From a virus: a stretch of DNA of 64,000 nucleotides. The translations under genes were made by a program, and so were the position numbers. How positions within the stretch are numbered: the first letter of the stretch is position 1; every line of letters begins with the position of its first letter. The notes beneath the pieces are model-generated. The model searched no databases, was not told where the DNA came from, and saw only the letters and a list, made by a program, of their open reading frames with translations. Of this stretch, positions 24,841 through 63,345 are shown one piece after another. The stretch spans positions 124,001-188,000 of IMG/VR virus record IMGVR_UViG_3300012931_000759, one strand, 5' to 3'.

Positions 24841-25034
24841 TGGCTTTGCTCCTGTGCTGTAACTGTATGGTTCTGCTGCGTGCGAAACGCGGTCACAGGT
24901 GCCGGACGAGCTATCCTAAGTCGACCTCTGACAGCCTCGGTGTGGCCAGGATAGGGGTGCTGAACATGCTGTGTATCGACAAACTGTGGCCACGGGAATG
25001 CCCGTGGACCTTGCGAAGGGAAACCATCATATGA
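24840..25034 (+). CDS. Small Cys-rich hypothetical protein (64 aa)
   Basis: 64 aa, coupled on both sides (TGATG at the start, ATGA at the end). Five cysteines in the first 50 residues (CCNC near the N-terminus, one after KRGHR, one in LNMLCID) suggest metal binding, but spacing is irregular. The double overlap is the main argument that it is real. Function unknown. Confidence 0.4.
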   Translation: MALLLCCNCMVLLRAKRGHRCRTSYPKSTSDSLGVARIGVLNMLCIDKLWPRECPWTLRRETII

Positions 25035-30560: not shown

Positions 30561-30570
30561 GGGAAGCGGA

Positions 30571-30651
30571 ATGGGCAGAATGGCGAAAGATAAGATGACC
30601 GGCGGCGCCCCGGTTCCGGCAGTTGCCCAGCGCCGGAAATGGCTACAGTAG
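30571..30651 (+). CDS. Possible 26-aa peptide
   Basis: A 26-codon frame (starts MGRMAKDKM, ends RRKWLQ) follows the preceding stop by 10 bases with only a weak purine-rich site upstream. Basic and Pro/Ala containing. No independent support; the 130-base gap between two genes may be non-coding instead. Confidence 0.2.
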   Translation: MGRMAKDKMTGGAPVPAVAQRRKWLQ

Positions 30652-30690
30652 CGGAGCCGGTCATTTCCATGGGAGGACGATGTTCGAGCC

Positions 30691-38171: not shown

Positions 38172-38348
38172 ATGATAGTGCCGAACACGCGGCGCCTAAA
38201 ACGCTTCGCGGTGATATACAAGGGAAGATCTTGCGGCCCGACCACGTCGTGGCCGCAAACCATTTGGTTTGATAAGGAGGAGGAGTACGATGAGGCGGTT
38301 CGCAAGCTGAAGACGCTGGTCGTGGATCTGAATGCCAATGCCGATTAG
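38172..38348 (+). CDS. Small hypothetical protein (58 aa) overlapping the terminase start
   Basis: 58 aa, ATG 38172 two bases after the preceding gene's stop region, ending TAG at 38346-38348 inside the terminase start. Mixed beta/alpha character (RRLKRFAVIYKGRSCGP, then EEEYDEAVRKLKTLVVDL). The overlap with the large terminase makes it a plausible coupled gene. No homologue recognised. It could be a small terminase partner, by position only. Confidence 0.5.
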   Translation: MIVPNTRRLKRFAVIYKGRSCGPTTSWPQTIWFDKEEEYDEAVRKLKTLVVDLNANAD

Positions 38349-40182
38349 GACAATTAACACCAGCCGTTGGGCTCCGGAGAACAGCTTCGAAGAGCTGAAG
38401 GCCGAACTGATGAAAGTCGATCCGGTCTATTTCGCCGAGTCATACCTGACGCTCGACGGAAATCCGATGAAGCTGACGGGCAATGGATGGAAGTTCATCG
38501 CCGACATCTACCGCTACATCATGTCCAAGGCGGTGTCGCCCGACGGCAAACCGATCGTCATCGTCAAGGGTCGCCAGGTCGGCGCCACAACGATGGCCTC
38601 GGCGCTGGAATTACACATGGTCGCCAGTGGTGTGTTTGGGCAGGGCGGAGCCAGGCCTATCCGCGTCATGCATGCTTTCCCACAGTTGGAGCTGATGCAT
38701 GCCTTCTCCAAGGACAAGCTGGAGAAAATGGTTCGTGAGTCGGCGATGGTTCCGGATCCGGATGATCCGCGGCACCAGATGAGGCCTTTCGTCGAGACTA
38801 TGAAAGATGCCTCGCGTGAGGCTTCCGACAGCCTGACCTACAAACAGTTCAAGCACGGCAACACCCTGTGGTGTGATTCCATAGGAAATGAGGGGGTTAG
38901 GGTGCGCGGCCGTACCATCGATGCCATCTTTTTCGACGAGGCCCAGCTCATGACGAAGCAGGCGGTCGACACGGCGGTCAAGTGTACCACGCGAGCCCAG
39001 TATGGTCCACAGCCTGGCGGCATCCAGGTCTACTTCGGCACCCCGGAGCATAAGAACTCTCACTTCTACGAAATGTGGGAAAACTCCGACCAACGCCGGT
39101 ATTACCTCGGCTGCGCTGAATGCCACCGCTACTTCCTTCTATACACTCCTGGCTCCGATAAGTGGGAGAAGGACATCTGGCTATACGAGAATGTGGTGAA
39201 ATGTCCTAACTGCGGTCACGAGCAGGACAAGGTAGAAGCAATCGAGCGCGGCAAATGGCTCCCTGCCCCCGGTAAAGAGGACGCTAAGATCGTCGGTTTC
39301 CACTTCAACCAACTCTTTATTCCGGAGTTTACGAAGGAAAAGATCCTCAATGAGAGCCCGGCGTATAACCCGATGAAGAGGGAGGTGGACTGGAACAATG
39401 AGGTGCTTGGCGAGTTTCACACGGGAACCGGCCTACCAATCACCCGCGAGGAGATCTATAAAACCTGCCGGGACCCTATGCGCACGATGGCCAAGCATAT
39501 CACCAAAGACGAGCGAAAGATGGTGTACATGGGTATCGACTGGGGAGGTAAGCCGGATATCGACGACGTAAAGACCCGTGGACAGTCCTTCTCCTGCGCA
39601 GTTGTGATCTCGGTAGAACACGACGGCCGGGTGTTGATAGAGTTCGCCCAGAAGTTAAAGAAGCTAGACCTACAGTCCAAGATGCAGTTTGTCGAGGAAA
39701 TGATGCGCCTGTACAACGTGCGGATGGTCGGGGCGGACATTGGGTATGCCGAGGACATTTCGGGTGAACTGAAAGCACGCCTAGGCGACCGCTTCAAGAC
39801 AGTGCGGAACTCCGCCCAGGTTCTCAGTGGCACCAAGTACCGGGAGGACGAGTTGGAGATCGTCATTGACAAGGATAAGTGGATTGGCGATATGTTCAAT
39901 CTGCTGCGTCGCGGCGGCGTTCGTTTCCCGTGGGGAAGCTACGAGCGCGTGGCCTGGCTGGTAGACCATTGCTGCTCCATGGAGAGCAAGCAGACCATCC
40001 GCGCGGGCATGCCGCATACCATGTTTGTCAAGGGGAAAACACACAACGACGGGCTGATGGCGCTCATTTACGCCTATGTCGCATACAAGTTCGAGCAGAC
40101 GCATGGCTTCAAGGCCACGCCTGGCAATGCGGTCGCGAAGTCGGTGAAGCCGGTCCTGGCGTTCGTTCCGCGCATGAGATGA
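38332..40182 (+). CDS. Terminase large subunit
   Basis: 616 aa. Start ATG 38332 (MPMPIR) or the ATG two codons later. ATPase domain: Walker-A-like GRQVGAT at 80-86, Walker B AIFFDEA at 198-204. A zinc-binding pair C261/C264 with C291/C294, seen in gpA-type terminases, separates it from the C-terminal RNase-H-like nuclease, which opens with GIDWGG (D403) and contains MVGADIGYAED. It cuts concatemers and drives DNA through the portal, whose gene follows after 12 bases. The protein has no intein. Confidence 0.93.
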   Translation: MPMPIRTINTSRWAPENSFEELKAELMKVDPVYFAESYLTLDGNPMKLTGNGWKFIADIYRYIMSKAVSPDGKPIVIVKGRQVGATTMASALELHMVASGVFGQGGARPIRVMHAFPQLELMHAFSKDKLEKMVRESAMVPDPDDPRHQMRPFVETMKDASREASDSLTYKQFKHGNTLWCDSIGNEGVRVRGRTIDAIFFDEAQLMTKQAVDTAVKCTTRAQYGPQPGGIQVYFGTPEHKNSHFYEMWENSDQRRYYLGCAECHRYFLLYTPGSDKWEKDIWLYENVVKCPNCGHEQDKVEAIERGKWLPAPGKEDAKIVGFHFNQLFIPEFTKEKILNESPAYNPMKREVDWNNEVLGEFHTGTGLPITREEIYKTCRDPMRTMAKHITKDERKMVYMGIDWGGKPDIDDVKTRGQSFSCAVVISVEHDGRVLIEFAQKLKKLDLQSKMQFVEEMMRLYNVRMVGADIGYAEDISGELKARLGDRFKTVRNSAQVLSGTKYREDELEIVIDKDKWIGDMFNLLRRGGVRFPWGSYERVAWLVDHCCSMESKQTIRAGMPHTMFVKGKTHNDGLMALIYAYVAYKFEQTHGFKATPGNAVAKSVKPVLAFVPRMR

Positions 40183-46083: not shown

Positions 46084-49000
46084 ATGGCGTGGCCATCCCT
46101 TTCGCGACGCGCTTCCCCCGGCATATCCCCGGTGGCCCTGATGCGCCTGACGGAGATTGATGATCCTGATGAACTACTCAAAAAGTTCAACAGAGATGAT
46201 ATTATAGTAGAACATAAATACGATGGCTGGAAGGCGCAGATCATCAAGGACGGGGAAAAGGTCCGCATCTTCAGCAGGCGCGGCGAGGAGGTCACTGGGA
46301 ACTTCCCGGCGATCGCCAAGGAGATGGTTGGTCTTCCTGACGGTACCCTTGTCGAGGGCGAGCTGGTCTACTGGGACAAGGGCAAACAGGATGTGACGAA
46401 GGTAACGTCCCTTGCCGGAAGCTCGGTCGACAAGGCCTTGGAGAAAGTGAAGGGGCTGCCCGGCAAGATGAAGCTCCATATCTACGACATCCTGTGGCTC
46501 AAGGGCAAAAACGTGGCCGACAGACCCTTCTCCGAGAGGCGCAAGCTGCTTGAGTCGGCTGTGAAGACCTCCGATACGGTCCTCCTGACAAAGCAGTACC
46601 CTTTCGCCAAGTGGCAGAATGCCATGAACACGGCAGTCGGCCAAGGTGGCGAGGGCATCGTACTCAAGCTCAAAGGCACCAAGTACCAGTACAAGCCCAA
46701 GGGCGAGTCCGAGCCAAAACCAAAAGATACGATGTGGAAGTATAAGGGCGGGGCTGGCAAGCACGACTCCGACGACTATGTGGTCTACGGCACGACCAAG
46801 AGCAAGACCGGCAAGCTCATGGCGCAGTTCGGCCAGTACTACAAGGGCAAGCTGTACGCCATCAGCGAGATCGACAACTTCTCGGCCGAGAACGAAGCCG
46901 AGATCGAGAAGCGCCTGAAAAAGGGTCCGTTCGTCATCGAAATTGGTTTCCAGGAGCGCGTGCCGGGCGGGCTGCGGCACCAGAAGTTTCTCAGGTTTCG
47001 GGACGACAAAAAGCCCAAGGATGCCACCATGCACGAATTCCATGCGGAGCATATCGGCGAGTTCGAACCAGCCAAGATGGAGCGGAAAGCAATGTTTGCG
47101 CTGGCGGGTACTCCCGATCTCGCCAAACTTGTTACGACGCTGGAACGGGCGGTTGGAAAAACAGACCCCATGAAGACGGGACCGACAAGGATCGGCGACG
47201 TGGGTGGTGTGGATGGCGACAAACTGTTCCAGCTCGTATCCAAACTTGAATCGAACGGTAGGACAGATGTTGTAGGAGACGCTGGAACGTCCTTTGGACC
47301 GACACAAATTCATGGGCCCTACCTCCTGGCCAGGCTTGCTGGAATGTCCGGCGCGCAGGCGGCCACCGGCTTGTCGCCCGATGAGATGCGCAAACTCTCC
47401 TCTTCCTGGCTGGACACCCTGAGGCAGCTTCGCGGCGCGCGCGTTTGGAAAGAGGTTCCAGTAGATCAGGACGAGGCGCGGAGATTACCTAGGATCAAGC
47501 GCCTGGAGAAGACCTTTATCCGCAGGCCGGATATGGTCATCGAGCAGAGGGACGGCCGGTATGTCGGTCGCATCTTGGATCTGGACGCCCTGCGAAGCCT
47601 GGGCTTCGATGTCGACTCGCAGATCTTCAGGAACGCCTTGCGCAGGATCTACGCGGAGTACATCACCGACAATGTCGCACTTAGCGGCCTGGCCCAGGCC
47701 CATCTGGGCTCCTTGGCCCCCGAGGCCTTCTACAAGTTCAAAAGGCAGTTCAACCCCGCCGGTATCCGGAAGAACAAGCCCCTAGCATCCCTGCTGGAGA
47801 GGGCCTCAACTAGCGACCTAACCAGCAGGATCGCTGCCGTGGTCCGGATGGTCGAGAAATCCGGGTACGACACGACTGCGCCGGGCGCGTTCAGCATCCC
47901 GCAGCTGGTCTTCATCGCCAACGGGAGCGGTATAGGGCGGGTCCAGCAGTTCCTCATGGACAGGAAGCCCTTCGCGCCGGGGAACTTACACTACCTACAG
48001 AGCCCCAGGTTTAAAGCCGCCATGAGCGCCTTTGTGAAAAACGATCCCGATCTTCGTGGAATGGCCACCCAGCTGCTCGCCGGGCTTCCTTCCGGCGACG
48101 GCATAGCTGGCTTTAAGGGGGAGGTTGCCGCTCGCATCGCGGCGCTGCTCGGGGCGGACAGCGAAGAGATCAGCCGGTCCGATGCAGTGAGGATGTTAAC
48201 GTTCGCCGACGGCCATCCAGATCGAGGGCGTGGCCGCTATCCGCGCTGGAATCCGGCCCTCCAGGCCCGCGAGATCATGAACTTGGTCGACCGCTGGCTG
48301 AACTATGAGAACATCCGGCCAATTGACCTGAAGGCGGTGGGCGTGACGCTCATTCGCGTCGACAGGGAGCAGGATCCGCCAAAGCTCGTCCTCTGGATCA
48401 TGGGGGACATTCAGGCGCTACAACGCCTGCTGCCGAGAAAGATGTGGGGCATGCCCGTTGTTCTACACTCCGACATCCCGAGGGCGACAACGGAGCTACC
48501 GGCCGTCACGGAGTTCGAGGAGGAACCGACGCTCGTTGACGTGGAGTCAAGAATGCCGACTAAGCTGTTCCAGGAGTACAGTGATCTCCTGGTGCGGGTA
48601 CGCGCCGAACTAAAGAGGACGCACAGGCACGTTCCCGAGGATCAGCTAAGACGTACGGTCTTTCTACACATTGCCGAGGAGCTGGGATACGATCTCGGGG
48701 AGCTGGAGAGAACCCTGGGTGAGCACGCCTGGCTCAGATTCTCCCATTGGCAGCCTCCTTTGTCCAAGCTGGCGATGGGCAATCGTGGCGTGCTCGCGTT
48801 CCCTGGACAGTACGCTGAGGATATCAAATCCGGCAAGATGGAACGGACGATCAGGCCTGGTGACATGCCGGTCGAGCCGGAGGAAGTGGTAGACGCTATC
48901 ACCTATTCGGGAGGACCTATTTGCCGGATCAAGATTCTGCTTAAGGAGATCATGAGCCTGCCGCGTCTCGCCAAGGCGTTCGGCAAGCATGTGGCCAGGT

Positions 49001-49980
49001 CCCTCGAGCACCGTTTCGGGCCGGACAGGCGCTTTATGGTCATCCGTTTCACTCGCTTCGGGGAGCAGGATGCCGACGACGGTGAACTTGACGAGAAAAA
49101 GCGCGGCGAGATCCTGATCGACAAGGATGGGATCGAACTCACGCGCGGGCAGATCTACGACCACTACGCCAAACCAGCGATCCGCAAACAGATCATGTCC
49201 CGCATCAAAGGCAAGCCTGTGCTAGTCTATCTTGGTGTGGGCAAGAACGAGAAGATCTTGAAGCGCAACCATGACAGTAAACCCATCGTCATTTCCAGCG
49301 ATGACCCAAAAGGGGATGGAGACAGTGGAAATTACTGGTACTGGGTCAAACGTCGGCTATTGGCTATTCATCAAGTGTTCGGTACGAAAACAGGTATTGG
49401 TTTTGTCGACCTGGATCTACATGGCGGATACCCACTCGATAAGAGCAAGGAGTACGCTAGGAAGGCAGTTGCGGCCATCAAGGAAAAGTATGGCGTTCAG
49501 CCGAAGGTCTACCAGAGTGGCGGCACTGGGCTCCATGTGGAGTTTGAGCTTGGCAAGGAGGTTGGTATCGACGGCCTGCGCAAGGAGTTGCGTGAGCTGC
49601 TCGACAAACTGAACGAGGATTTCGAGGGCGCGACGACCGGCCTTGTGAAGGGAAAAGGTATGCGGACGGATGTGAGTACACTTCACAACAAGGGCAGCCT
49701 ACGTGTGCCTGGTTCATTGGGTGAAACTTGGGGCAAGATGAAAAAGTCTTTGTCCCAATCGACCGATGACGATTATCAGAATGGGCAATTTGGTGGCAAA
49801 TATTCGGACACTGGCCCATTTGGCGATGGTGGTTCTATTGTGCCTATGCCCTATCAGTCTTCGGCTCCCGAACAGGTCGGAGCTGCGACGGCCTCTGAGA
49901 GAATCAAGTTATTCCGAATTGTTGCGCAGCAGTACGATGATGAAGTGAAGCCTGGAACAATAGCTCCTGGAAAATTTTGA
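46084..49980 (+). CDS. 1298-aa fusion: ATP-dependent DNA ligase, lysozyme-like, ASCH-like and LigD-type polymerase domains
   Basis: Tag L-S-R-R-A at 6-10. Residues 12-325: DNA ligase with motif I EHKYDGWK (K45 nucleophile), motif III LHIYDILWL, motif IV GEGIVLK and motif V WKYKGG. Residues 378-445: lysozyme/transglycosylase-like, E389 in KLESNGRTD and GTSFGPTQI. A long unassigned middle (450-885). Tag P-P-L-S-K-L-A at 891-897, followed by an ASCH-like domain (FPGQYAEDIKSGKMERTIRPGD, 901-1000, by key residues) and a LigD-type primase-polymerase (1015-1225; D1109, D1111, SGGTGLH at 1145-1151, R1207). It seals and fills DNA ends; the lysozyme part may act on the cell wall. Fusion of these in one frame is very unusual. 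Confidence 0.85.
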   Translation: MAWPSLSRRASPGISPVALMRLTEIDDPDELLKKFNRDDIIVEHKYDGWKAQIIKDGEKVRIFSRRGEEVTGNFPAIAKEMVGLPDGTLVEGELVYWDKGKQDVTKVTSLAGSSVDKALEKVKGLPGKMKLHIYDILWLKGKNVADRPFSERRKLLESAVKTSDTVLLTKQYPFAKWQNAMNTAVGQGGEGIVLKLKGTKYQYKPKGESEPKPKDTMWKYKGGAGKHDSDDYVVYGTTKSKTGKLMAQFGQYYKGKLYAISEIDNFSAENEAEIEKRLKKGPFVIEIGFQERVPGGLRHQKFLRFRDDKKPKDATMHEFHAEHIGEFEPAKMERKAMFALAGTPDLAKLVTTLERAVGKTDPMKTGPTRIGDVGGVDGDKLFQLVSKLESNGRTDVVGDAGTSFGPTQIHGPYLLARLAGMSGAQAATGLSPDEMRKLSSSWLDTLRQLRGARVWKEVPVDQDEARRLPRIKRLEKTFIRRPDMVIEQRDGRYVGRILDLDALRSLGFDVDSQIFRNALRRIYAEYITDNVALSGLAQAHLGSLAPEAFYKFKRQFNPAGIRKNKPLASLLERASTSDLTSRIAAVVRMVEKSGYDTTAPGAFSIPQLVFIANGSGIGRVQQFLMDRKPFAPGNLHYLQSPRFKAAMSAFVKNDPDLRGMATQLLAGLPSGDGIAGFKGEVAARIAALLGADSEEISRSDAVRMLTFADGHPDRGRGRYPRWNPALQAREIMNLVDRWLNYENIRPIDLKAVGVTLIRVDREQDPPKLVLWIMGDIQALQRLLPRKMWGMPVVLHSDIPRATTELPAVTEFEEEPTLVDVESRMPTKLFQEYSDLLVRVRAELKRTHRHVPEDQLRRTVFLHIAEELGYDLGELERTLGEHAWLRFSHWQPPLSKLAMGNRGVLAFPGQYAEDIKSGKMERTIRPGDMPVEPEEVVDAITYSGGPICRIKILLKEIMSLPRLAKAFGKHVARSLEHRFGPDRRFMVIRFTRFGEQDADDGELDEKKRGEILIDKDGIELTRGQIYDHYAKPAIRKQIMSRIKGKPVLVYLGVGKNEKILKRNHDSKPIVISSDDPKGDGDSGNYWYWVKRRLLAIHQVFGTKTGIGFVDLDLHGGYPLDKSKEYARKAVAAIKEKYGVQPKVYQSGGTGLHVEFELGKEVGIDGLRKELRELLDKLNEDFEGATTGLVKGKGMRTDVSTLHNKGSLRVPGSLGETWGKMKKSLSQSTDDDYQNGQFGGKYSDTGPFGDGGSIVPMPYQSSAPEQVGAATASERIKLFRIVAQQYDDEVKPGTIAPGKF

Positions 49981-50034
49981 ATATCAGTTTGTGTAAATAT
50001 TTGAGATCGCTCAACATTATGGAGTGTGGTGCTG

Positions 50035-53000
50035 ATGGTCAGCCTTCGTAGACGAATCCTCATGCTGGTGGCCCCGAAAGGGTTCTTTGAACCCGAATAT
50101 TCGGCATCACGTGCCGTGTTTGCCGATAGGGGCATCGATGTGGCCGTGGCCACGGCCGGTAAGTCGGCTGTGAGTGCGCAGGGCACAACCATCAGGGTCG
50201 ACCTTGACGTAGCGGACGCTGACGCAAAGGACTTCGACGCACTGTTTGTGGTCGGCGGCAAAGGTATGATCGAGTTTTCGGACGACAAGGCCGCTAAGCG
50301 CATCCTGCGCAAGTTTGTGCGCGTCGGCAAGCCGGTAGCCATGATCTGTCACGCCCCGCTCTTGGCGGCAAAGGCGAAGGTTGCTGCCGGTCGGCAGATG
50401 ACCGGATGGCCAGAGATCCGTCCCGATATGGTGGCCTCCGGAGCCAAGTGGACCGGCATGCCGGTGGAGCGGGACGGCGATCTGTTTACAGCCGTGGGAC
50501 CGGAGGATGCCGAATCCCTCGCCGACATCCTGGTCCGGCGGATGGATGGTGCCCCGACGCTCTCCGAGGCAATGTTAGATGACAACGCCGCCATGCGCAA
50601 ATTGGCGCGCCTGTGGCGCGCCGCAGCAAGGCTCGACAAGCCGATGACGGACGAGGAGGCCGAGCGCTGGTTGACGGAGTTTGAGCGCAGGGACGAGGGC
50701 GAGGAGGAGCCACCTTCTGAACCTACCACTCCCAAGCCGGTTCTAGCACCCGCGCCGAAATCGGTCCCGGCGCTCGCCGCCAAACCCAAACCTGAACCAG
50801 AGTTTACGCCCGACCCAGAGAGGCGCGATCAGATCACACATAAGCCGAAAAACGAATGGAATATTGTGGTGGAGCTTCGGCCACCCCGCACAGACGGCGG
50901 CTGGCCGGAACTTCCCGAGACCCCTCCAGTCGGATTCCCGTTCCCAGCTGAGGCGCTGAAGGACAGCCCTTCCATCAGGGCGCTATTCCAGAAGCCTGAG
51001 ACCTGGCGCGCACTCAAAGAGATTGCCGCCAATCCCAACAAGAGTGGTACAATACAGTCATACCTCGTGCCGACGCTAGTGCTCGTTATCGGCAAGGCCT
51101 GGTGGGAGATCAACAAGCGTCGCAAGCAGCTCGGCAACGCGCCGTTCGGCCTTTTCTCGTCCGACGAGTACAAGACCATACAGGACGCCAATGTCCCCAT
51201 GGAGGAGACGCAGATTGGACGGGCCTTCATTGCGCTGATCAACTGGCAGGTTACCAAGATACTCCAGTTCTACCTCGCCACCGGCAAGATCGAGAATGCT
51301 CGGCTGGATGGCTATATCTATGACGCCCTGAACAAGCACATGGTGAACGATGCGGGCAAGCGGCACGGATTCGAACCCAAGCGCCAGCCCGCCTGTGCCT
51401 ACTGTCGCAGCAAGCGCGTCATAGAGACGACGCCTCCGTTCCTTTCGCAGATCGGGACGCACACTGTCCAGGAAAGGAATCTGACGCGAAGCCGTCCCCT
51501 GTTCAAGTGCCCAACCTGCGAGGATCTGATCGAGACCAAGGAACAGGAGCTTCGCCTGAAGGAACAGGGTGTCCGCAACGCGGAAGAGAGTTTGCGCGAT
51601 ATAGCCAAGAATGTCCGGAACACCAAGGACAATCTGACCAAGGATCCGGACAGTGCCGAGCTGAAGCAGCGCCTGGTGAACTATGAGGCTATGTTGGCCA
51701 GCTACCGCCCACAGGTAGAGGAACTTGCCAAGGAGCGCAACACCCTGAAGGGCGAGATCCAGAACAGGCGCAATATGATAGGCGTGCCTTATTCGCATCT
51801 CTCTTGTATTAACGAGGCCTGCCCAGGCGCCGCTATACCCCTCACGTTCGTGGACTGGGACAACTCTTTCTGGAAGACGCCTGCTGGAGATGTGGCCAGG
51901 CGTGACCTAGCCAGCTTCTACCACATCGAGAAGAGTCCCGAAGGTCAGAAGGCTGAGGATGCGCCACAGGAAAGCGTTCAGCCTACATCTGAGCGCGCCG
52001 GGAAAAAACCGCCCCCGTGGATGTGGCACATTCCGTTCCGCTGCCCGTTTGATGGGCTTGTTTTCACGCCGCATGAGGCATTCGGGAAGGGGCGTGTCGG
52101 CGAGGACGGGACAAGACTTGGTGGCTTGTTTGTTAACCCGCCTCGCGCCACTAGGTGGTGGAAGCCGATGTCTCTCGAGCAGCAGCGGATGCCCGATGAC
52201 GAGGGCCAGAAGCAGCGCATCGAGGAGATCCGGTCGTTGACCGGTATCGAAACCACCACGGACTCGCCGGATTTCCTGCGCTCTCAGGAGATGAAACAGG
52301 AGAACGCCTGGCTGGCGGACCGCCTGCGCGAGGATATCCTCCGGCAGAGGGAAAATTTTATGAAAGAGCGCGGAACGCTTGAGGGCCATCGCGAGGTCAA
52401 GCTCCGCAGGACTATGTTCGACGCTTTGCTTGAATGGGCATATCTACATCCCATACATCTTGTGGCATTCTATAGCGCGCGTTCCCAGGCTACACAGAAG
52501 CCGCAGACGCACGTGCCAGTCGGCACCGAGCCAGTTGTGGACGGAAAGAGTGGGGAAGTCAAGGAGCATCTCGACGAAAAGAACATTAAGATGTCCCCAA
52601 AGCAGGCCGAGCGGATCATCTCCGCAATCATACAGGTGTGGTTCGAGAAGATGCTGGCCGAGAAGGATGGGCTGACCATCCTCAAAGGTAGGCCGGGCAA
52701 AGGGCGTTCAGGCAAGCTCACGGGACAGGGCAACTACCTGGCCATCAAGGAAGTCGACGGCGTAGAGCCGGACGGCTTTTTTGTCACGACGGTACAGCGA
52801 GCGTTGGACGGGCAGCTCGAAGCGCTTTGTAATCTCCGCACAACCAGCCCTAAGACTCGCGGGGCCGGATACTACCCCGCTCCATGGATGGCGCTTGTAC
52901 AGGGTATCTGGGACTACGACGGCCCAGCCGAGCGAATGGGTATCTCTATGCCCCTCGTGGAGGGGCAGAAGCTGGTCGCGGGCAAGAGAAGCCATCTCCA

Positions 53001-55344
53001 CGAAATGGAGACCCACAACAGCCATGGCATCCGATTCGACCCCGAAACGACGCTGAAGGAGGGGGATCGCATTGTTGTGAAGGCCCTGCTGATGCCGCGT
53101 AACTCCTCCTGGCCTCCCAATAAGTTCGTTAGCCATATCCGGCAAGGTCTGAAGTGGGACATCGGCGATGCCAAGGTCTACTACTCGGCGCTGCGCCGCC
53201 GCCAGAAACCTAAACCCTCGGACGAGCAGGTTATGGCCTTCTGGACGAAAAAGATGCAAGAAGCCAACATGACCGAGAAACTTGAGAAGTTTTATGAGAC
53301 GGTATACGACAGGCTGCGCCACAAGGAGGACCTCTCGGCTTTCGAGATAAGGCTGTTGGAGCAGTTTGAGCAAGCCAAGGAACAGGAGGCGTCCGACACC
53401 ATGGTTTCCGAAGCCAAGGATCCCCTCGCAAAATACCAGGGCAAGCGCGAATTCGACAAGACCACGGAGCCGAAAGGTAAGGAGTCGGAGGGTGGGAACA
53501 GGTACCGCTTTGTCATCCAACTACACCATGCCAAGAAAGCGGGTGACCATTACGATTTACGCCTAGAGAACGACGAGGGCGCATTGTCGTCGTGGAGTAT
53601 CCCGAAGCACCGGCTACCCAAGGGCAAGGAGAAGTTGCTCGCTGTCAGGACCGAAGACCATCCGGTCGAATACCTGAAGTTCAAGGGCGAAATCCCGGCG
53701 GGCGAGTATGGGGTCGGCACGATGGAGATCCACGACTCGGGAACCTACGAGGAGATCGAGGCCGGCAAGACCAAGATCGTCTTCTGCTTGAAGGGAAAGA
53801 AGGAGAAGGGGGCCTACAAGTTATTCCGGGCAGGCGAGGGAAACAAATGGATGGTGATGGAACATACAGAAAATAAACAGGAAAAGAAAGAGGCAGCCTG
53901 TGGCTCGAGTGTAACTCTATTCTCCAAACGAATTGGCAGTGTTCCGTTGTCAAAGATGGCGGCGCACAGTGGTGCGATGTTGGCTCTCATGGCTCCGTCG
54001 GCCATTGCCAGGAAGATGCGCAAGGCCAAGATGGTAGAGGACGAAGATCTGTCTGATACCCTTCACATGACTCTGTTGTACCTCGGGAAAGCTGCTGACC
54101 TCAGCAAAGAGACGCTGGAAGCAGTCCGGAAGGCGGCAGAGAAGGTGTGCGAGCGGCACGACCCGCTAAAGATGGGTGTTTCGGGTGCCGGGACATTCAC
54201 TCCGGAAGAAGATGGCACTCCGGTATACGTGGTACCTAATGCGAAGGGATTGAGCGCTCTACAGGCCGACCTGGAGAATGTTATCGGCAGCATCGTCGAC
54301 CTGCCCTCTGAGCACGGCTGGGTTCCGCATATGACTGTATGCTACTGCCGCGACGGGAAACCGGAACTCCCAGACCTGACGGAGAAACTGGAGTGGACCG
54401 CTGATAAGGTGCGTCTACAGGCTGGTGACGAGAAGATCGCGGACATTCCCATTGGCCGCAGGAAAAAGGGTGGAAGCGAGCTTCCGCTGTCCAGGCGGGC
54501 TGCGCTGGAGCGGTTGCCGATAGCCGCTGATCCTGTAATGTGGACGGATGAACAGTTGGTGGAAGCCGTCCGTCGACCGGAACTGTTCGGAAACGACAAA
54601 GATCGGTATCGGGCAGCAGTCGAACAGTTGGCCAAACGCGGTCTGGTGAAAAAGGTGGAGCCAACAGACATCGGCGAATGGCGTGAGCGCGGTTGGTGGC
54701 TACTAATGTGGGCGGGGATCCCACTCGCTTTCTACAACAACGATGCTGCTGCCAGTATGGCTAAACGGCTGCTCGCAGAGGATTTCGCCAAGGACGGCAC
54801 GCAGCCTATTGCTGCGCGTAAGTTTGATCCGATCCATTCCCGTCTGCGTTGGCAACTCGACGAGGTCATGGATCTGGGCCCGGCCGAGGACTACGAGGAG
54901 GCTGATCACCGGCGCGGTAGGGCAGGAACGGCCGTGGATGAACTGGTTACGCATCCTATGTACGCAAAACGGCGCAGGGAATTCGCCGAGAAGGCATTGA
55001 ACATCGCCAAGGCTCCCGCTGGTTTCAGACCGTTCAAAGAGTCGGTTCCCTCAGGTGCGCGACCAACCGAAACTAACGCTGACGCAGCTGAGGCTCGCAT
55101 CACGGACATGCGGTTCGGTAACACCCTGCCGGAGTTTACTGGACCGCTGGTGGATTCCCAGGAGGCTGCGAAGGACGCCGGTGACGAACTGGTCGAGGAC
55201 ACCGCCAAGAGACTTGCCAAGCGGCTGGAGGCCGAGCGGGCCGGTCTAGATCCTGAAAAACTGGCGGACGACGATGCGCTGGAACTAGCCCTGATCGAGC
55301 CGGACGAGGTTCCGCTCTCGAAGCGGACGGAAACATACCAATAA
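50035..55344 (+). CDS. 1769-aa fusion: DJ-1/PfpI, paralogue of the 10.4-kb protein, LigD 3'-phosphoesterase, 2H phosphoesterase
   Basis: Start ATG 50035 with GGAG 10 bases upstream. Residues 1-172: DJ-1/PfpI fold with nucleophile C105 in MICHAPLL. A Pro-rich linker follows. Residues 275-1060: paralogue of the 673-aa protein with two zinc pairs. Residues 1132-1278: LigD-type 3'-phosphoesterase (QLHHAKKAGDHYDLRLE; IPAGEYGVGTMEIHDSG). Tags L-F-S-K-R and P-L-S-K-M at 1295-1308. Residues 1311-1475: 2H phosphoesterase with H-M-T at 1344-1346 and 1432-1434. Tag P-L-S-R-R at 1484-1488, a helical tail domain, and tag P-L-S-K-R at 1760-1764 near the C-terminus. A multi-enzyme polypeptide, likely processed. 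Confidence 0.85.
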   Translation: MVSLRRRILMLVAPKGFFEPEYSASRAVFADRGIDVAVATAGKSAVSAQGTTIRVDLDVADADAKDFDALFVVGGKGMIEFSDDKAAKRILRKFVRVGKPVAMICHAPLLAAKAKVAAGRQMTGWPEIRPDMVASGAKWTGMPVERDGDLFTAVGPEDAESLADILVRRMDGAPTLSEAMLDDNAAMRKLARLWRAAARLDKPMTDEEAERWLTEFERRDEGEEEPPSEPTTPKPVLAPAPKSVPALAAKPKPEPEFTPDPERRDQITHKPKNEWNIVVELRPPRTDGGWPELPETPPVGFPFPAEALKDSPSIRALFQKPETWRALKEIAANPNKSGTIQSYLVPTLVLVIGKAWWEINKRRKQLGNAPFGLFSSDEYKTIQDANVPMEETQIGRAFIALINWQVTKILQFYLATGKIENARLDGYIYDALNKHMVNDAGKRHGFEPKRQPACAYCRSKRVIETTPPFLSQIGTHTVQERNLTRSRPLFKCPTCEDLIETKEQELRLKEQGVRNAEESLRDIAKNVRNTKDNLTKDPDSAELKQRLVNYEAMLASYRPQVEELAKERNTLKGEIQNRRNMIGVPYSHLSCINEACPGAAIPLTFVDWDNSFWKTPAGDVARRDLASFYHIEKSPEGQKAEDAPQESVQPTSERAGKKPPPWMWHIPFRCPFDGLVFTPHEAFGKGRVGEDGTRLGGLFVNPPRATRWWKPMSLEQQRMPDDEGQKQRIEEIRSLTGIETTTDSPDFLRSQEMKQENAWLADRLREDILRQRENFMKERGTLEGHREVKLRRTMFDALLEWAYLHPIHLVAFYSARSQATQKPQTHVPVGTEPVVDGKSGEVKEHLDEKNIKMSPKQAERIISAIIQVWFEKMLAEKDGLTILKGRPGKGRSGKLTGQGNYLAIKEVDGVEPDGFFVTTVQRALDGQLEALCNLRTTSPKTRGAGYYPAPWMALVQGIWDYDGPAERMGISMPLVEGQKLVAGKRSHLHEMETHNSHGIRFDPETTLKEGDRIVVKALLMPRNSSWPPNKFVSHIRQGLKWDIGDAKVYYSALRRRQKPKPSDEQVMAFWTKKMQEANMTEKLEKFYETVYDRLRHKEDLSAFEIRLLEQFEQAKEQEASDTMVSEAKDPLAKYQGKREFDKTTEPKGKESEGGNRYRFVIQLHHAKKAGDHYDLRLENDEGALSSWSIPKHRLPKGKEKLLAVRTEDHPVEYLKFKGEIPAGEYGVGTMEIHDSGTYEEIEAGKTKIVFCLKGKKEKGAYKLFRAGEGNKWMVMEHTENKQEKKEAACGSSVTLFSKRIGSVPLSKMAAHSGAMLALMAPSAIARKMRKAKMVEDEDLSDTLHMTLLYLGKAADLSKETLEAVRKAAEKVCERHDPLKMGVSGAGTFTPEEDGTPVYVVPNAKGLSALQADLENVIGSIVDLPSEHGWVPHMTVCYCRDGKPELPDLTEKLEWTADKVRLQAGDEKIADIPIGRRKKGGSELPLSRRAALERLPIAADPVMWTDEQLVEAVRRPELFGNDKDRYRAAVEQLAKRGLVKKVEPTDIGEWRERGWWLLMWAGIPLAFYNNDAAASMAKRLLAEDFAKDGTQPIAARKFDPIHSRLRWQLDEVMDLGPAEDYEEADHRRGRAGTAVDELVTHPMYAKRRREFAEKALNIAKAPAGFRPFKESVPSGARPTETNADAAEARITDMRFGNTLPEFTGPLVDSQEAAKDAGDELVEDTAKRLAKRLEAERAGLDPEKLADDDALELALIEPDEVPLSKRTETYQ

Positions 55345-55667: not shown

Positions 55668-56864
55668 ATGTCAAAAAAGAAGGCAACTCCCGATAACAAT
55701 CTACAATCTGTCAATCCTGAATTGGCGAAAGAGTGGCATCCGACCAAGAATGGGAGTCTGAAGCCGACAGAGGTCTTGCCGTATAGCCAAAAGAAAGTCT
55801 GGTGGAGTTGTGTCAAAGGGCACGAATGGTCTGCCGAGATAGGAAGCCGTTCACAAGGGTACAAATGTCCATATTGTTGGGGAAGATTTGCTACGCCCGA
55901 GAACAATCTTGCGATTATACATCCGGAAGTGGCCACAGAATGGCATCCGATGAAAAATGGCACCTTGCGCCCAATCGATGTGACACCATTGTCGAGCAAA
56001 AGGGTGTGGTGGAAATGTACCAATGGGCATGAAAGATGCTCAACGGTAAAAAGTCGTGTGCGCGCTAATGGATGTCCGTGTAAAAAAGGCAGGTTGTTTT
56101 CCCAAGAACACAGTCTCGCCGCACTTTTCCCCAAAGTAGCGAAACAATGGCATCCAACCAAGAATGGCCGCTTGGCGCCCTGCGATGTTGGCCCCAGATC
56201 AAACAAAATTGTATGGTGGATATGTGAACAAGGACATGAATGGAAAACATTCGTATATACGCGGACAGATGGATGGGGGTGTAGGATTTGTAGTGGGCGA
56301 GTGGCAACTTCCGAACACAATCTAGAAATCGCATTTTCTGACATAGCATTACAGTGGTGTTTAGTAAAAAATGGTTCTCTGAAACCTTGCGATGTAACCC
56401 CGCATTCAGGCACAAAAGTGTGGTGGAAATGTATAAACGGGCATGAATGGGAAGCGGCTATCTGTAACAGGACAAGCACCAACAAGACAGGATGTCCATA
56501 TTGTTCCACACGCGTCTCCAAGGGTTGTGTGAAATGGCTTGACAGCATTGGGTTGCCGAACGATAGCCAGCATCGAGAAGTGATATTGAAAGCGGGCAAA
56601 CACTGGTACTGTGTTGATGGGTTTGATAAAGATATAAACACAGTATATGAATATCTTGGAGACTTTTGGCACGGCAATCCTAATAGGTTTAAACCAACTG
56701 GTGTAAATCCACAATGTAAAGAAACATACGGGTCATTGTTGTTAGGAACAGTAGACAAGTTGAATAATATTTACAACGGCGGCTTCAAAATTATATATAA
56801 GTGGGAAAGTGCCGCCAATCATCAGGTATACAAGCCTGGAGTGATAAGCGCATCGGCGCATTGA
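55668..56864 (+). CDS. Homing endonuclease with four zinc-ribbon repeats and a Vsr-like nuclease domain
   Basis: 398 aa. Four repeats at about 9-70, 79-138, 147-208 and 217-279, each with hPxxAxxWHPxKNG, a vWWxC segment, GHE and a CxxC pair, matching the DUF4379-type probable zinc-ribbon. The C-terminal domain has V-Y-E-Y-L-G-D-F-W-H-G (E328, D332, H335), the pattern of EDxHD/Vsr-like homing endonucleases. AT-rich and inserted between virion genes. The zinc repeats probably read the DNA target in a modular way. Confidence 0.88.
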   Translation: MSKKKATPDNNLQSVNPELAKEWHPTKNGSLKPTEVLPYSQKKVWWSCVKGHEWSAEIGSRSQGYKCPYCWGRFATPENNLAIIHPEVATEWHPMKNGTLRPIDVTPLSSKRVWWKCTNGHERCSTVKSRVRANGCPCKKGRLFSQEHSLAALFPKVAKQWHPTKNGRLAPCDVGPRSNKIVWWICEQGHEWKTFVYTRTDGWGCRICSGRVATSEHNLEIAFSDIALQWCLVKNGSLKPCDVTPHSGTKVWWKCINGHEWEAAICNRTSTNKTGCPYCSTRVSKGCVKWLDSIGLPNDSQHREVILKAGKHWYCVDGFDKDINTVYEYLGDFWHGNPNRFKPTGVNPQCKETYGSLLLGTVDKLNNIYNGGFKIIYKWESAANHQVYKPGVISASAH

Positions 56865-57581: not shown

Positions 57582-58153
57582 GCGGACGACTTTTGAGGCT
57601 GGCCAAGGCCATCGCCGTGATCGATGTCAAGGAGCCGGAGGGCGGCTGCTTTCCCGGTGCCGAGAAGGTTTTAGAAAAGCAGAAAGGTCCCGGCGGCATG
57701 TGGCGCGAGGACGAGTTGCTGGACTATGGGCGCGCCAAAGGCACCGTGCCGGACAAGAAGCCGAAAGATCTCGACCTGAGGGCCGAGGACCTCGCCAACC
57801 GGCTCGAGGAGGCTGTGGCTGCCATTGGCGACTGCGTGGCAATCCTGAAGGAATTGGGAATGGACGAGGGGAAGGCTGGGGACAAAATCCTCTCCATCGT
57901 CCGGGACGAGACGCTCGGACCGGAGAGGATTCCGGGCGGGTTCTCGGAGGGCAAACCGGACTCCGAGTTCGACCCCGACCAGCTGGAGAAGGGCATCAAG
58001 GTCGAATTGGAGCATACGGGCAACATCGGGGTCGCAAAAGAGGTCTCCAAAGACCATCTTTGCGAAAACAAGCGTTATTACGATTACTTAGAAGAAATGG
58101 AAGAAAAAGCCGAAAAGAAGGGCGATTCGTGTAGGTTGGCGGATCAAACATGA
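57578..58153 (+). CDS. DUF5661-like protein (191 aa)
   Basis: 191 aa. Residues 133-176 (FDPDQLEKGIKVELEHTGN through KRYYDYLEEME) match a small domain found in many phage proteins and named DUF5661: G-x-K-V-E-x-E-H-T, A-x-E-V-x-x-D-H-L and YYxxL. Its AT-rich last 130 bases differ in composition from its GC-rich start, as expected if the next homing gene brought flanking DNA with it. Function of the domain is unknown. Confidence 0.6.
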   Translation: MSGRLLRLAKAIAVIDVKEPEGGCFPGAEKVLEKQKGPGGMWREDELLDYGRAKGTVPDKKPKDLDLRAEDLANRLEEAVAAIGDCVAILKELGMDEGKAGDKILSIVRDETLGPERIPGGFSEGKPDSEFDPDQLEKGIKVELEHTGNIGVAKEVSKDHLCENKRYYDYLEEMEEKAEKKGDSCRLADQT

Positions 58154-59016
58154 ATCTGTGTCAATGTGGCTGCGGCGCCCTCGTTGAGAAGCGTTACAAA
58201 AAAGGTCATGGGCGGCGTGGCAAAACAAATACTCCAGAACACAATCAGAAAATAGGTCTGGCCAATTCTGGTAGGAAACACACGCGAGTTGGTACAACCA
58301 GCGAATACAAAGCTGTTCCTGATTCTTTCCTCCAAAACCAACAGGTTGGTCGTCGTCTGTCCGAAGAAACAAAGGCGAAAATGAGTCGCATCGCCAAAGA
58401 AAAGGGTTTTGGAAAATGGATGGTCGGCAGAAAACGATCTGAGGAAAGTATCAAAAAAGGAGCAGACAAGGTAAAAGGACACGAAGTGTCCTCCGATACG
58501 CGCAAAAAGATCTCCGATGCCAACGGTGGTCAGAACAACGGTATGTTTGGGAAACGTCACACAGAGGAAGCGAAAACGAAAATTGCTGAAGCCGCTGCTG
58601 CTATGTGGGAAAACCCGGAAATCAGAGCACAACTGCTTGAGGCGTTCAATGCTCCAGAACATATCGAAATGCTGCGCCAGAGAAGGGCCAATATGGTGTT
58701 GCCCGTCAAGGACACAACCATTGAGGTGATCGTGCGCGGATTCTTGGACGCTTTGGGTGTTCTGTATCAACAGCACAAGATGATCAAGGACATAGAGCAC
58801 AGATATCAATGCGATTTTTATGTAGAGGCTCATGGGCTGGTCATAGAATGCGATGGCGATTACTGGCATCAGTATCCACATGGCCGCGACATAGACCGCG
58901 CGCGAACCTTTGAGATGGAACAGCAGGGATATAAAGTATTGCGACTGTGGGAGCACTCCATTCGCAAAATGTCCTGCGATGATTTTCGTCTGGTATTAGA
59001 AAAGGTGGTCAGATGA
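58150..59016 (+). CDS. NUMOD-type homing endonuclease with Vsr-like nuclease domain
   Basis: 288 aa. N-terminal CQCGCGALV zinc-type motif, NUMOD-type repeats (LSEETKAKMSRIAKEKG, RSEESIKKG, HTEEAKTKIAEAA) and a C-terminal nuclease with V-I-E-C-D-G-D-Y-W-H (E233, D235, D237, H240) followed by GYKVLRLWEHSIR. Its start overlaps the previous stop and its stop overlaps the next start, both by ATGA. AT-richer than neighbours. Confidence 0.88.
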   Translation: MNLCQCGCGALVEKRYKKGHGRRGKTNTPEHNQKIGLANSGRKHTRVGTTSEYKAVPDSFLQNQQVGRRLSEETKAKMSRIAKEKGFGKWMVGRKRSEESIKKGADKVKGHEVSSDTRKKISDANGGQNNGMFGKRHTEEAKTKIAEAAAAMWENPEIRAQLLEAFNAPEHIEMLRQRRANMVLPVKDTTIEVIVRGFLDALGVLYQQHKMIKDIEHRYQCDFYVEAHGLVIECDGDYWHQYPHGRDIDRARTFEMEQQGYKVLRLWEHSIRKMSCDDFRLVLEKVVR

Positions 59017-60140: not shown

Positions 60141-60815
60141 ATGGTTTCTGGGATATACCTCATAACAAACACCATAAATGGCCATCGGTATGTGGGCAGC
60201 AGCGCCGATGTTGACATGCGCTGGAGCCAGCACAAATGGAATGCCGGAAAGAACAAACACATAAACCCTCATTTTCAGCATGCCTGGAACAAATACGGGC
60301 AACAAGCATTCGCGTTCGAGGTGTTGGAAATTGTACCGGATCCTGCTGATTTGGTGACCATAGAGCAGTACTACCTGGATTGGCTGGAACCGGAGTACAA
60401 CATTTGTCCTGTGGCGGGTAGTTGCCTTGGTCGGGCGTGTTCCAAACAGCATCGGGCAAGAATCAGCGCGTCGCACAAGGGCAAAGTGCTGTCGGAGGAA
60501 CACAAGACCAAGATCAGCGCGTCTCATCAAGGCAAGCCCCTGTCGCAATCGCATCGGGATCACATAGGTGCCGCACATCTTGGACGACACCTTTCCGAGG
60601 AGACCAGAGCGAAACTCAGGGCCGCAAACATGGGAAAATGTCCTTCTGAAGCGACATTGGCGGCAGTACGCAAAGCAAATAAAGGAAGGCCATTGTCCGA
60701 GGAACATCGTGCCAAATTGAGTGCGGCACACAAGGGCAAGGTGTTTTCTGACGAACACCGCGCCAGGTTGAGCGAAGCGGCCAAACGCAGATATGGTCGC
60801 TTGTCGGAGGGCTAG
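60141..60815 (+). CDS. GIY-YIG homing endonuclease with NUMOD3 repeats
   Basis: 224 aa. The GIY-YIG domain is clear: GIYLITN (from residue 4) and HRYVGSS with the Arg/His region (SQHKWNAGKN) and a distal Glu in TIEQYYLDW. Residues 84-220 are about seven tandem NUMOD3-type units (LSEEHRAKLSAAHKGK and variants) for DNA recognition. Located 3 bases after the preceding stop. It shares its start sequence with the remnant at the window end. Confidence 0.93.
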   Translation: MVSGIYLITNTINGHRYVGSSADVDMRWSQHKWNAGKNKHINPHFQHAWNKYGQQAFAFEVLEIVPDPADLVTIEQYYLDWLEPEYNICPVAGSCLGRACSKQHRARISASHKGKVLSEEHKTKISASHQGKPLSQSHRDHIGAAHLGRHLSEETRAKLRAANMGKCPSEATLAAVRKANKGRPLSEEHRAKLSAAHKGKVFSDEHRARLSEAAKRRYGRLSEG

Positions 60816-61202: not shown

Positions 61203-61855
61203 TGAAAACCTGTACGCGCTGTAACCAACCAAAATCCAAAGACGAATTCTACGCAGATCATAGGGTTTACGACGGACGACGAAGTGTTTGTAAACAGTGT
61301 CAAGATACTGTGAATAATCAATATCGCACTCAGCATAAGAATGAGGTGGAGGCACAGCGGGCCGCCTATCGCGAAGCGCACAAAAACGAGAACCAGGCGT
61401 ATCAGAAGCAATATCGTGCCATCCACAGACAAGAACTATCTGAGAAAAAACGGGCATACTACAATCAGTCCGATGTGAGGGATGCGAAACAACTCCATGA
61501 CAGGGCGTACCATGCTAGTAACAAAGAAAGTCGCGCGGAGACCATGAAGCGTTGGCGGCAAACTGACGCCGGACAGGCCTCCAGAGCAAATTCGTGTGCC
61601 AAACGTCGCTCCAGGGTTGGAGACAACATCATCTCAACAACCGAGTGGCAACTCATCATGTCCAATGCCAACTGGCATTGCGTTTATTGTGACATCGCGC
61701 TCACCCCAGAAAACCGTAGTCTGGATCATGTGGTGCCTCTATCGAAAAACGGATCACATTGCGTAGACAATCTAGTGGCATGTTGTAGAACATGTAATTC
61801 CAGTAAAAAAGACAAACCTGTCCTGGAATTTGTCTCCAACAGAGGTCAGATATGA
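61199..61855 (+). CDS. HNH homing endonuclease
   Basis: 218 aa. Two CxxC groups at the N-terminus (CTRCNQ, CKQC), a basic helical middle with repeated QYR/YR units, then the HNH nuclease: WHCVYCDIAL, LDHVVPLSKNG, NLVACCRTCNSSK (the H/N/H residues and structural zinc Cys pairs). ATGA overlaps on both sides with tagged genes. AT-richer than neighbours. It appears inserted between two tag-carrying genes. Confidence 0.92.
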   Translation: MMKTCTRCNQPKSKDEFYADHRVYDGRRSVCKQCQDTVNNQYRTQHKNEVEAQRAAYREAHKNENQAYQKQYRAIHRQELSEKKRAYYNQSDVRDAKQLHDRAYHASNKESRAETMKRWRQTDAGQASRANSCAKRRSRVGDNIISTTEWQLIMSNANWHCVYCDIALTPENRSLDHVVPLSKNGSHCVDNLVACCRTCNSSKKDKPVLEFVSNRGQI

Positions 61856-63345
61856 TTCCCCTCAGCAAACGCGCGATCCAGGTCGTCATCGAGCCGCTTG
61901 ATCCTGCGGTCCAGCAGGCTGTGACGCGCATCAATGCGCGCGACCCTGCTCTTCTTGCGCGTGTCCACAAGATTGTGGTACACCCAGGTGGCGGAGCCGA
62001 GTTGGGTCATGTTCAATCCGGAAAAGGACATGATCCGCAGGAGATCCACCTTTTCAAGGGGCGCATAGAGCAGATGGTTCGTCAGCAGACCAGCGCCACC
62101 GGCGTGAAGCCAACCCCGACGGATTTCGCCCAGGCTTTGGAACAGGCAATAGTGGAAGTAATCGGCCATGAGGCCGGGCACATCGGGCCGGAGCGGCCGA
62201 TTGTGCCGGGAGCGCAGCCTTTCCTTGGGGAACCGGAGGCTGAGACGAAGGCCAAGGAGACCGTCCGGAGGATCTATCCCGGAGCCGTCGCGCACGCGGC
62301 CATCGAACTGGACGACATCAGACGGAAATTCATGCCAGATGCCCCCATGGGCGAGCCGGATCTGGCCTTTGTGGCAAAGGTTGCCGCCGGAAACGGCGCT
62401 GGCGCCCTGCGCGACGGGTTGAGGATCTTGCGCCACGGCAGCGTGCCTGTGGCTTTGGCTATGGGACAGGCCTGCGTGTTCAACAGCCAGGTCGCGCGTC
62501 GCACGGATGTGGCCAGGAAGTTGGGCTTCCTAGTGAGCCTGTTTGGGGCGCTGCCGAACTCCAACGATTTCGCGATGGCGCTTGCCGCCTGCCAAACGGA
62601 CAACGGCCTCGAGCCGACAGGGAAGCTCGACCGTCCAACCATAGCGCACCTGCGCGCCCGCATGGCGCCCTCCGAGGAGTTCCCGCGCAACTTCGGCATG
62701 GTGGCCGAGGGACTGTATCGCGGAAGGCAGCCCGACAGCATCGGGCAGCTCGCGGCCCTGCGCGACAGGCTGGGCGTCCGCCGCGTTGTGACGCTGAACG
62801 ACGACGGCCCACCGATCGCCGACTGGTGCCGCCAGCTGGGCCTGGGGCACCTCCACGCGATGCTGTCGTCCGGCGCTCCCCAGGAGCCCGGATGGCAGGT
62901 TTTCGGCCCCGAGCTGTCGGATTTCCTGCTTGAGACCCCCACATTCGTCCATTGCCGCCATGGAGCCGACCGGACGGGCGGCGTCGTGGCGCGGTGCCGC
63001 ACCGAGATGGGTTGGCCCTGCGACCTGGCATACGCCGAAGCCAAAGCCTTCGGTTTCAAGGACCGTTTCCCCGACATGGTCGACCGGTTTACCGACGCCT
63101 GCGGACACGACCCGCACGGGCACCGGCACCCGCCCATCGACACCGCCCTGATCCGCCGCATCATGGGGGCGGAGCTTGCCGCCAACGCCCCGCGTCCTTC
63201 GGTCGAGCAGGATCTGCTCGAGCCCACCCCGTTTGACCTCCACTACACCACCGACAACAACAGCTACGAGAGTGGGATCGATACGATCCTGTCGCCATAT
63301 TCCATCATGTCTATTCCGACAGGTTTTCCGGGGGCGGGGAGATGA
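61852..63345 (+). CDS. Tagged fusion: HExxH metalloprotease, PG-binding-like and dual-specificity-type phosphatase
   Basis: 497 aa. Tag P-L-S-K-R-A at residues 3-8. H-E-A-G-H at 106-110 in VIGHEAGHIG, with acidic E128/E131 as possible third ligands, indicates a zincin. Residues 240-268 (MALAACQTDNGLEPTGKLDRP) look like a peptidoglycan-binding repeat. Residues about 281-400 are a tyrosine/dual-specificity phosphatase: AEGLYRGRQP and RVVTLND, then active loop H-C-R-H-G-A-D-R-T (367-375; C368, R374). Three different enzyme-type modules plus a tag point to a protein that acts on the host after delivery. This is inference. Confidence 0.8.
   Translation: MIPLSKRAIQVVIEPLDPAVQQAVTRINARDPALLARVHKIVVHPGGGAELGHVQSGKGHDPQEIHLFKGRIEQMVRQQTSATGVKPTPTDFAQALEQAIVEVIGHEAGHIGPERPIVPGAQPFLGEPEAETKAKETVRRIYPGAVAHAAIELDDIRRKFMPDAPMGEPDLAFVAKVAAGNGAGALRDGLRILRHGSVPVALAMGQACVFNSQVARRTDVARKLGFLVSLFGALPNSNDFAMALAACQTDNGLEPTGKLDRPTIAHLRARMAPSEEFPRNFGMVAEGLYRGRQPDSIGQLAALRDRLGVRRVVTLNDDGPPIADWCRQLGLGHLHAMLSSGAPQEPGWQVFGPELSDFLLETPTFVHCRHGADRTGGVVARCRTEMGWPCDLAYAEAKAFGFKDRFPDMVDRFTDACGHDPHGHRHPPIDTALIRRIMGAELAANAPRPSVEQDLLEPTPFDLHYTTDNNSYESGIDTILSPYSIMSIPTGFPGAGR

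Follow-up and report, generated by a model that had tools for sequence, protein, structure and literature searches.

A tag-punctuated multi-enzyme polypeptide, probably virion-loaded, encoded among the head genes of a giant phage

Among the head genes of a giant phage lies a single reading frame for a large polypeptide, here called P0001, in which several enzyme modules are joined and the later ones are separated by short tag peptides. An earlier note on this DNA had suggested a multi-enzyme, probably virion-loaded, tag-separated protein, and this suggestion is backed by the location of the gene, by its relatives and by the statistics of the tags. We lean toward the reading that P0001 is a virion-loaded polyvalent protein, in which the tags would act as processing or targeting sites and some of the modules, together with those of the upstream protein P0002, would make up a LigD-like end-healing kit; packaging, cleavage, end healing and the substrate of the 2H module are the parts of this reading that we infer. 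The DNA analyzed, called the window below, is 64,000 nucleotides long and corresponds to bases 124001-188000 of a 340,392-bp phage record.

Modules of the chain and their genomic setting

P0001 is one uninterrupted ORF, whose reading frame is open from a GTG at 50026 that offers an alternative start to the ATG at 50035. Its modules, in window coordinates, are as follows.

50035..55344, + strand: P0001, 1769 aa from the ATG
50050..50532, + strand: DJ-1/PfpI module (aa 6-166; PF01965, E 2.3e-34, Pfam profile search)
50902..53214, + strand: Cys-rich core (aa ~290-1060), zinc-ribbon-like, with two CxxC
53425..53868, + strand: LigD-type 3'-phosphoesterase, PE (aa 1131-1278; TIGR02777, E 1.6e-40, at a score of 138.4 bits that is under the curated 144)
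53965..54432, + strand: 2H phosphoesterase module, LigT/ThpR-like (aa ~1311-1466)
54502..55281, + strand: tail domain (aa 1490-1749), recurring among relatives

The ORF and the profile matches bear out a single multi-enzyme polypeptide with a tail domain, as well as the DJ-1/PfpI fold, the LigD 3'-phosphoesterase and the 2H phosphoesterase that had been read from the letters. The nucleophile Cys of the DJ-1 module sits in ICHAP at position 104, and the catalytic motif is intact. The PE is also matched by LigD_N at aa 1162-1265 (E 1.3e-25; PF13298, above cut-off), and its catalytic motifs are intact, namely FVIQ..H..H.DLRLE (HxDLR) and EDHP with the conserved His, Asp and Arg. The 2H profile match covers aa 1338-1461 (PF13563, E 6.6e-16), with both HxT motifs present at aa 1344 and aa 1432. 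The tail domain occurs in six ORFs of this phage family, including P0001, and a significant solved relative was not found for it. Matches of P0001 in GenBank phages were limited to short stretches of 2H or DJ-1.

The Cys-rich core, with four invariant Cys in its two CxxC, is common to the polyproteins of relatives. Its predicted model (pTM 0.40) matched no known fold below E 0.36, and a search of viral contigs with the core alone found no close relatives. The earlier note had spoken of a paralogous zinc protein, which is not confirmed within this phage: the core matched no second copy in the phage's own record, and relatives alone yielded paralogues (G005:40281, G009:260852 and G014:72680).

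The surrounding genes, and the modules of the upstream partner P0002, are the following.

38332..40182, + strand: terminase large subunit (TerL), upstream of P0001
40195..44451, + strand: portal protein with two intein-like insertions, upstream of P0001
46084..49980, + strand: P0002, 1298 aa, fused with the P0001 homologue in relatives
46099..47079, + strand: ATP-dependent DNA ligase module of P0002 (PF01068, E 1.4e-31; KYDG motif)
47182..48120, + strand: conserved module of P0002, peptidoglycan-hydrolase-like by motif only (LES..GD.G.SFG.TQ)
48766..49101, + strand: ASCH-like domain of P0002 (PF04266, 7.8e-4 and 0.01 in relatives, below cut-off)
49105..49899, + strand: AEP or LigD-Pol-like primase-polymerase of P0002 (DLDLH and SGGTGLH motifs)
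61852..63345, + strand: phosphatase-like (PTP-SAK) protein (PF22784, 2.7e-5, below cut-off) with the N-terminal tag MIPLSKRA

Upstream of P0001 and on the same strand, the order is TerL, the portal gene with its intein-like insertions, two small ORFs and P0002. Downstream follow the genes for a head maturation protease (189622-193602 of the record; phrog_18299, E 2e-11) and the major capsid (major head) protein (203147-204172 of the record; phrog_2522, E 3.4e-76), so that P0001 is located between terminase and portal on one side and protease and major capsid protein on the other.

Several neighboring genes carry intein-like insertions or resemble mobile genes. The portal insertions match Hint and LAGLIDADG, and the portals of several relatives are uninterrupted at one or both sites. 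The genes behind P0001 (window 55668-56864, 58150-59016 and 60141-60815) resemble homing-endonuclease-type mobile genes, with four DUF4379 treble-clef repeats, a NUMOD3/Vsr-like match and an N-terminus that looks like GIY-YIG by eye. Farther upstream, window positions 24971-27799 encode a 942-aa protein that matches UDP-glucose dehydrogenase in two stretches and is possibly intein-interrupted. In addition, a 539-aa ORF (G000:C1:43123-44742) has an N-terminus that is GroEL chaperonin-like by eye.

Resemblance to bacterial LigD differs among the modules. The PE aligns with bacterial LigD PE at an hhalign E of 4.8e-44. The profile of the AEP module aligns with bacterial LigD Pol at an hhalign E of 3.7e-5 (prob 71), compared with at least 0.2 for controls, and the Pfam family PF21686 (LigD Prim-Pol) matches relatives only below cut-off (4.4e-4 in G014). 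Among solved relatives, the P0002 ligase is nearer to archaeal/eukaryotic DNA ligases (4e-22) than to LigD ligase (2e-8). The term LigD-like set thus describes activities and not a proven descent from a single LigD. Nor is the P0002 ligase the only one of the phage, because a second ATP-dependent DNA ligase is encoded outside the head cluster (G000:C1:30049-31467, i.e., positions 30049-31467 of the record). Ku was found neither in the phage's own record nor in the records of 11 relatives, which are mostly fragments. For the peptidoglycan-hydrolase-like module of P0002, a significant solved relative was not found; in the homologous ORF of G012, the glucosaminidase family PF01832 matches at 7.7e-6, which is short of its cut-off.

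Fusion and fission in related phages

Relatives were collected by a terminase (TerL) scan of IMG/VR, which yielded 14 loci, and scans with the PE, the primase and the 2H module added more. A single ORF combines the P0002 and P0001 homologues in each of G005, G009, G011 and G014 (2718, 2851, 3178, and 3474 aa, respectively), and the modules follow the same order in all four: ligase, hydrolase-like, ASCH, AEP, DJ-1, Zn core and PE. Of 12 records, several of them fragments, 9 have the PE, 8 have the ligase and 10 have the AEP core; PE and ligase occur together in 7 of the 12, and all 7 have the AEP as well. PE, primase and ligase form the core of the polyprotein, while the 2H module is optional (3 of 12 records).

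Among the fragment records, the PE is found without ligase in G019 and G020, and the AEP without PE or ligase in G018. In G012, PE and ligase were not matched, and the ASCH-AEP region is left as flanking remnants only. A strict co-loss of ligase, AEP and PE, which we considered, fits G012 and is broken by G018, G019 and G020.

The optional modules have their own distribution. In G009 and G012, a separate ORF has the 2H module following a type IB topoisomerase. G012 also has the tail domain as a stand-alone protein, beginning MQYILSKRAMNTLPIAEDP; in G003, G005 and G014 this domain belongs to the ORF upstream of TerL. As the 2H and tail modules follow in gene order elsewhere, P0001 looks like a Zn core/PE polyprotein fused with 2H and tail.

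Other arrangements were seen among the relatives as well. An intein with a LAGLIDADG endonuclease lies inside the PE module of G011 (L036, aa 2703-3068 of the 3178-aa ORF). The major capsid gene of G009 (L024, contig 187656-192111) is split into two parts, separated by about 3.7 kb that contain other ORFs, which resembles an intron or intein arrangement. A 178-kb viral contig (L094) encodes a stand-alone 537-aa PE-ligase protein.

A short tag at module borders

The tags found in P0001 and P0002 are the following.

48757..48774, + strand: tag PLSKLA of P0002, preceding ASCH/primase
53920..53961, + strand: double tag FSKRIGSVPLSKMA, separating PE from 2H in P0001
54484..54501, + strand: tag PLSRRA (aa 1484), separating 2H from the tail domain of P0001
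55312..55329, + strand: C-terminal tag PLSKRT of P0001 (aa 1760), 4 aa before the end

At the PE/2H border, PLSKMA is located at aa 1304; the border homologous to the PLSRRA site reads LSKRA in G009 and G012, and a tag-like SLSRRA stands at the N-terminus of the P0002 ligase module. Tag peptides between the later modules, as the earlier note had described them, are thus present at the PE/2H and 2H/tail borders and at the C-terminus. Within the phage itself, however, the tags are degenerate and P[LI][ST][KR] is enriched only about twofold (24 vs 11 in shuffled sequences), so it is the relatives that give the tag its statistical weight, and there it has the sharper form [LIVMFY]SKRA. In 38 module-bearing ORFs this form occurs in 42 copies, compared with 0.29 in shuffled sequences (maximum 3 in 300), a count that overstates the independent events because many tags are homologous copies; counted by hand, there are about 19 border classes, none of which is inside a module. 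The remaining 338,000 aa contain 6 copies, mostly in neighboring ORFs. None of the 42 lies inside a module core, with cores (profile matches trimmed by 12 residues at each end, and by 40 at the PE start) covering 49.9% of residues. The densest case is a 1933-aa ORF (L093) with seven exact tags and one degenerate.

A looser form, phi-x-K-x-A, is concentrated at the N-termini of head-cluster proteins. Within the first 30 aa it is found in 10 of 35 head-cluster proteins of the phage vs 10 of 223 elsewhere (p 4e-5), and the corresponding counts are 11 of 40 vs 10 of 237 in G009 (p 2e-5), 8 of 35 vs 4 of 99 in G005 (p 0.002) and 7 of 31 vs 5 of 74 in G014 (p 0.03). The carriers in the head cluster include the protease and capsid proteins, and the pattern fits a head maturation or targeting signal. 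DELIKRAL in the capsid protein was dropped as a candidate tag, since it lies in a fully conserved region and is hence uninformative. We know of no protease with a phi-S-K-R-A recognition motif.

Packaging, processing and delivery

Taken together, we hypothesize that P0001 would be made late, together with the head proteins, would probably be loaded into the prohead through its tags, and would be delivered with the DNA. P0001 and P0002 would form one bead chain of modules, as they do within one polypeptide in related phages. The phi-S-K-R-A tags at module borders and N-termini may be prohead recognition sites. Most likely they would be cut by the head maturation protease encoded downstream, a plausible step, and they might in addition direct proteins to the capsid, as such signals do in T4. 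The PE would clean 3' ends, the primase-polymerase would fill them, and the ligase would close the ends or nicks in the incoming genome, while the DJ-1, ASCH, Topo IB, phosphatase and 2H modules may be interchangeable accessories. A wider claim, which we put forward tentatively, is that giant phages of one clade encode, as a tag-punctuated polyprotein, a LigD-like machine for DNA-end healing that is loaded into the virion, and that phi-S-K-R-A is a universal plug-in signal for processing and packaging, with modules freely swapped between head-delivered polyproteins.

Tags need not be cut in order to be useful. They might instead be docking (cargo-loading) peptides, one per module, that bind the inner capsid or the scaffold, with the protein packaged at full length. 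In some stand-alone proteins the tag lies within the first 13 residues, where cutting would free only a short peptide, and the C-terminal tag of P0001 is similarly placed, 4 aa from the end; further, phage N4 packages its virion RNA polymerase without cutting it (PMC5512222). However, seven exact tags in one 1,933-aa protein exceed the need for one anchor, and the cluster itself includes a maturation protease gene. We regard uncut docking as rather doubtful.

It is also conceivable, but in our judgment unlikely, that these are late-made intracellular repair enzymes that are not packaged and were fused by chance, the tags being remnants of the starts of the fused ORFs. The N-terminal tags of stand-alone homologues do match the internal tags of the fusions, for example in the G012 tail domain, and fusion and fission vary among relatives. 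However, internal tags are exact across divergent relatives, unlike decaying remnants, and the genes adjoin terminase and portal in those relatives whose contigs extend that far. Processing or targeting of a packaged chain, as hypothesized above, is the reading with which we continue.

The 2H module

The earlier note had read the 2H module as a possible pre-loaded counter-defense enzyme akin to Acb1, but the best matches of the module lie elsewhere. Its profile matches are 2_5_RNA_ligase2 and RNA 2',3'-cyclic phosphodiesterase, and its PDB sequence matches are PH0099-type proteins and an RNA 2',3'-cyclic phosphodiesterase; Acb1 was not matched in either search. The predicted model (pLDDT 66, pTM 0.66) aligns better in VIA-align with drCPDase (Z 14.7) and LigT (13.7) than with the phage BCSR5 phosphodiesterase (8.8) or the penguinpox cGAMP PDE (7.4), and an Acb1 structure is absent among the Foldseek and VIA matches listed for the module. 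Against viral models (BFVD), the module matches actinophage proteins (E 1e-8), among them one annotated as a capsid morphogenesis protein, whereas two Acb1 proteins come only at rank 39 (E 0.08) and rank 47 (E 0.3), far below the LigT-like matches. Profiles, Foldseek, VIA-align and BFVD thus all side with the RNA-processing LigT/ThpR enzymes and actinophage 2H domains, which is the first of the observations that the earlier note had named as counting against its proposal, and the anti-CBASS reading is left without specific support, although the module may still act on nucleotides. A shared 2H fold would not by itself fix the substrate, but nothing in these comparisons indicates Acb1 in particular. 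Most likely the module acts on RNA 2',3'-cyclic or 2'-5' linkages, and it would heal or degrade such species. An Acb1-like enzyme that is freed at the tags and destroys CBASS cyclic oligonucleotides is quite improbable given these matches and the presence of the module in so few records, even though the fold has both HxT motifs and virion-borne 2H domains of polyvalent proteins were proposed in 2017 to degrade signaling nucleotides as counter-defense (PMC5512222).

Comparison with known systems

The polyvalent proteins that phages and conjugative elements encode are predicted to enter the host together with the DNA (Iyer et al. 2017; PMC5512222). Like them, P0001 is large, joins several unrelated enzymatic domains and is encoded with portal, terminase and head genes, and 2H is already among the polyvalent domains (PMC5512222). 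The difference is in processing, which is ascribed to built-in zincin metallopeptidases in polyvalent proteins (PMC5512222), whereas here a linear border tag is combined with a separate maturation protease. LigD, DJ-1 and PfpI are not mentioned in the polyvalent-protein text (PMC5512222), nor is DJ-1 in a survey of jumbo phages (PMC7824862). In a limited literature search neither the tag nor the LigD-like set turned up, a silence that is weak evidence for their being undescribed; the polyvalent kind is already known, and the tag and the DNA-end-repair enzyme set are new as far as we found.

If the preferred reading is true, the tag would predict the set of proteins that enter the head, their cut sites and the delivered products, and could help to locate, by sequence, the effectors that other giant phages inject. 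If LigD-like end healing is indeed virion-borne and proceeds without Ku, a phage would have a new means of protecting or circularizing its incoming genome. By comparison, mycobacteriophage Corndog seems to depend on end joining assisted by a Ku that the phage encodes (PMC4351075).

Compared with bacterial LigD, the PE is clearly homologous, the AEP appears LigD-Pol-like, with DxD and SGGxGxH, and an ATP-dependent ligase is part of the same chain. Unlike in bacterial LigD, the modules lie far apart or in two ORFs, in another order and with extra modules, Ku was not found, and the phage ligase module is nearer by sequence to archaeal/eukaryotic ligases. For the 2H module, LigT/ThpR phosphodiesterases belong to the same 2H family by profile and fold, and gp20 of Arthrobacter phage Kovu, a 2H protein, is also encoded between a portal/capsid maturation protease and the major capsid protein; in contrast to both, the 2H of P0001 is a tag-bounded module of a giant chain.

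For the tag itself, T4 and SPN3US are the closest parallels. In T4, propeptides direct proteins into the core of the prohead, and the SPN3US prohead protease cuts after AxE (PMC10052503). As in these phages, a putative processing motif of head proteins is accompanied by a maturation protease in the genome (the phrog_18299 match). Unlike theirs, the putative motif here is phi-S-K-R-A or phi-x-K-x-A and is also repeated inside polyproteins.
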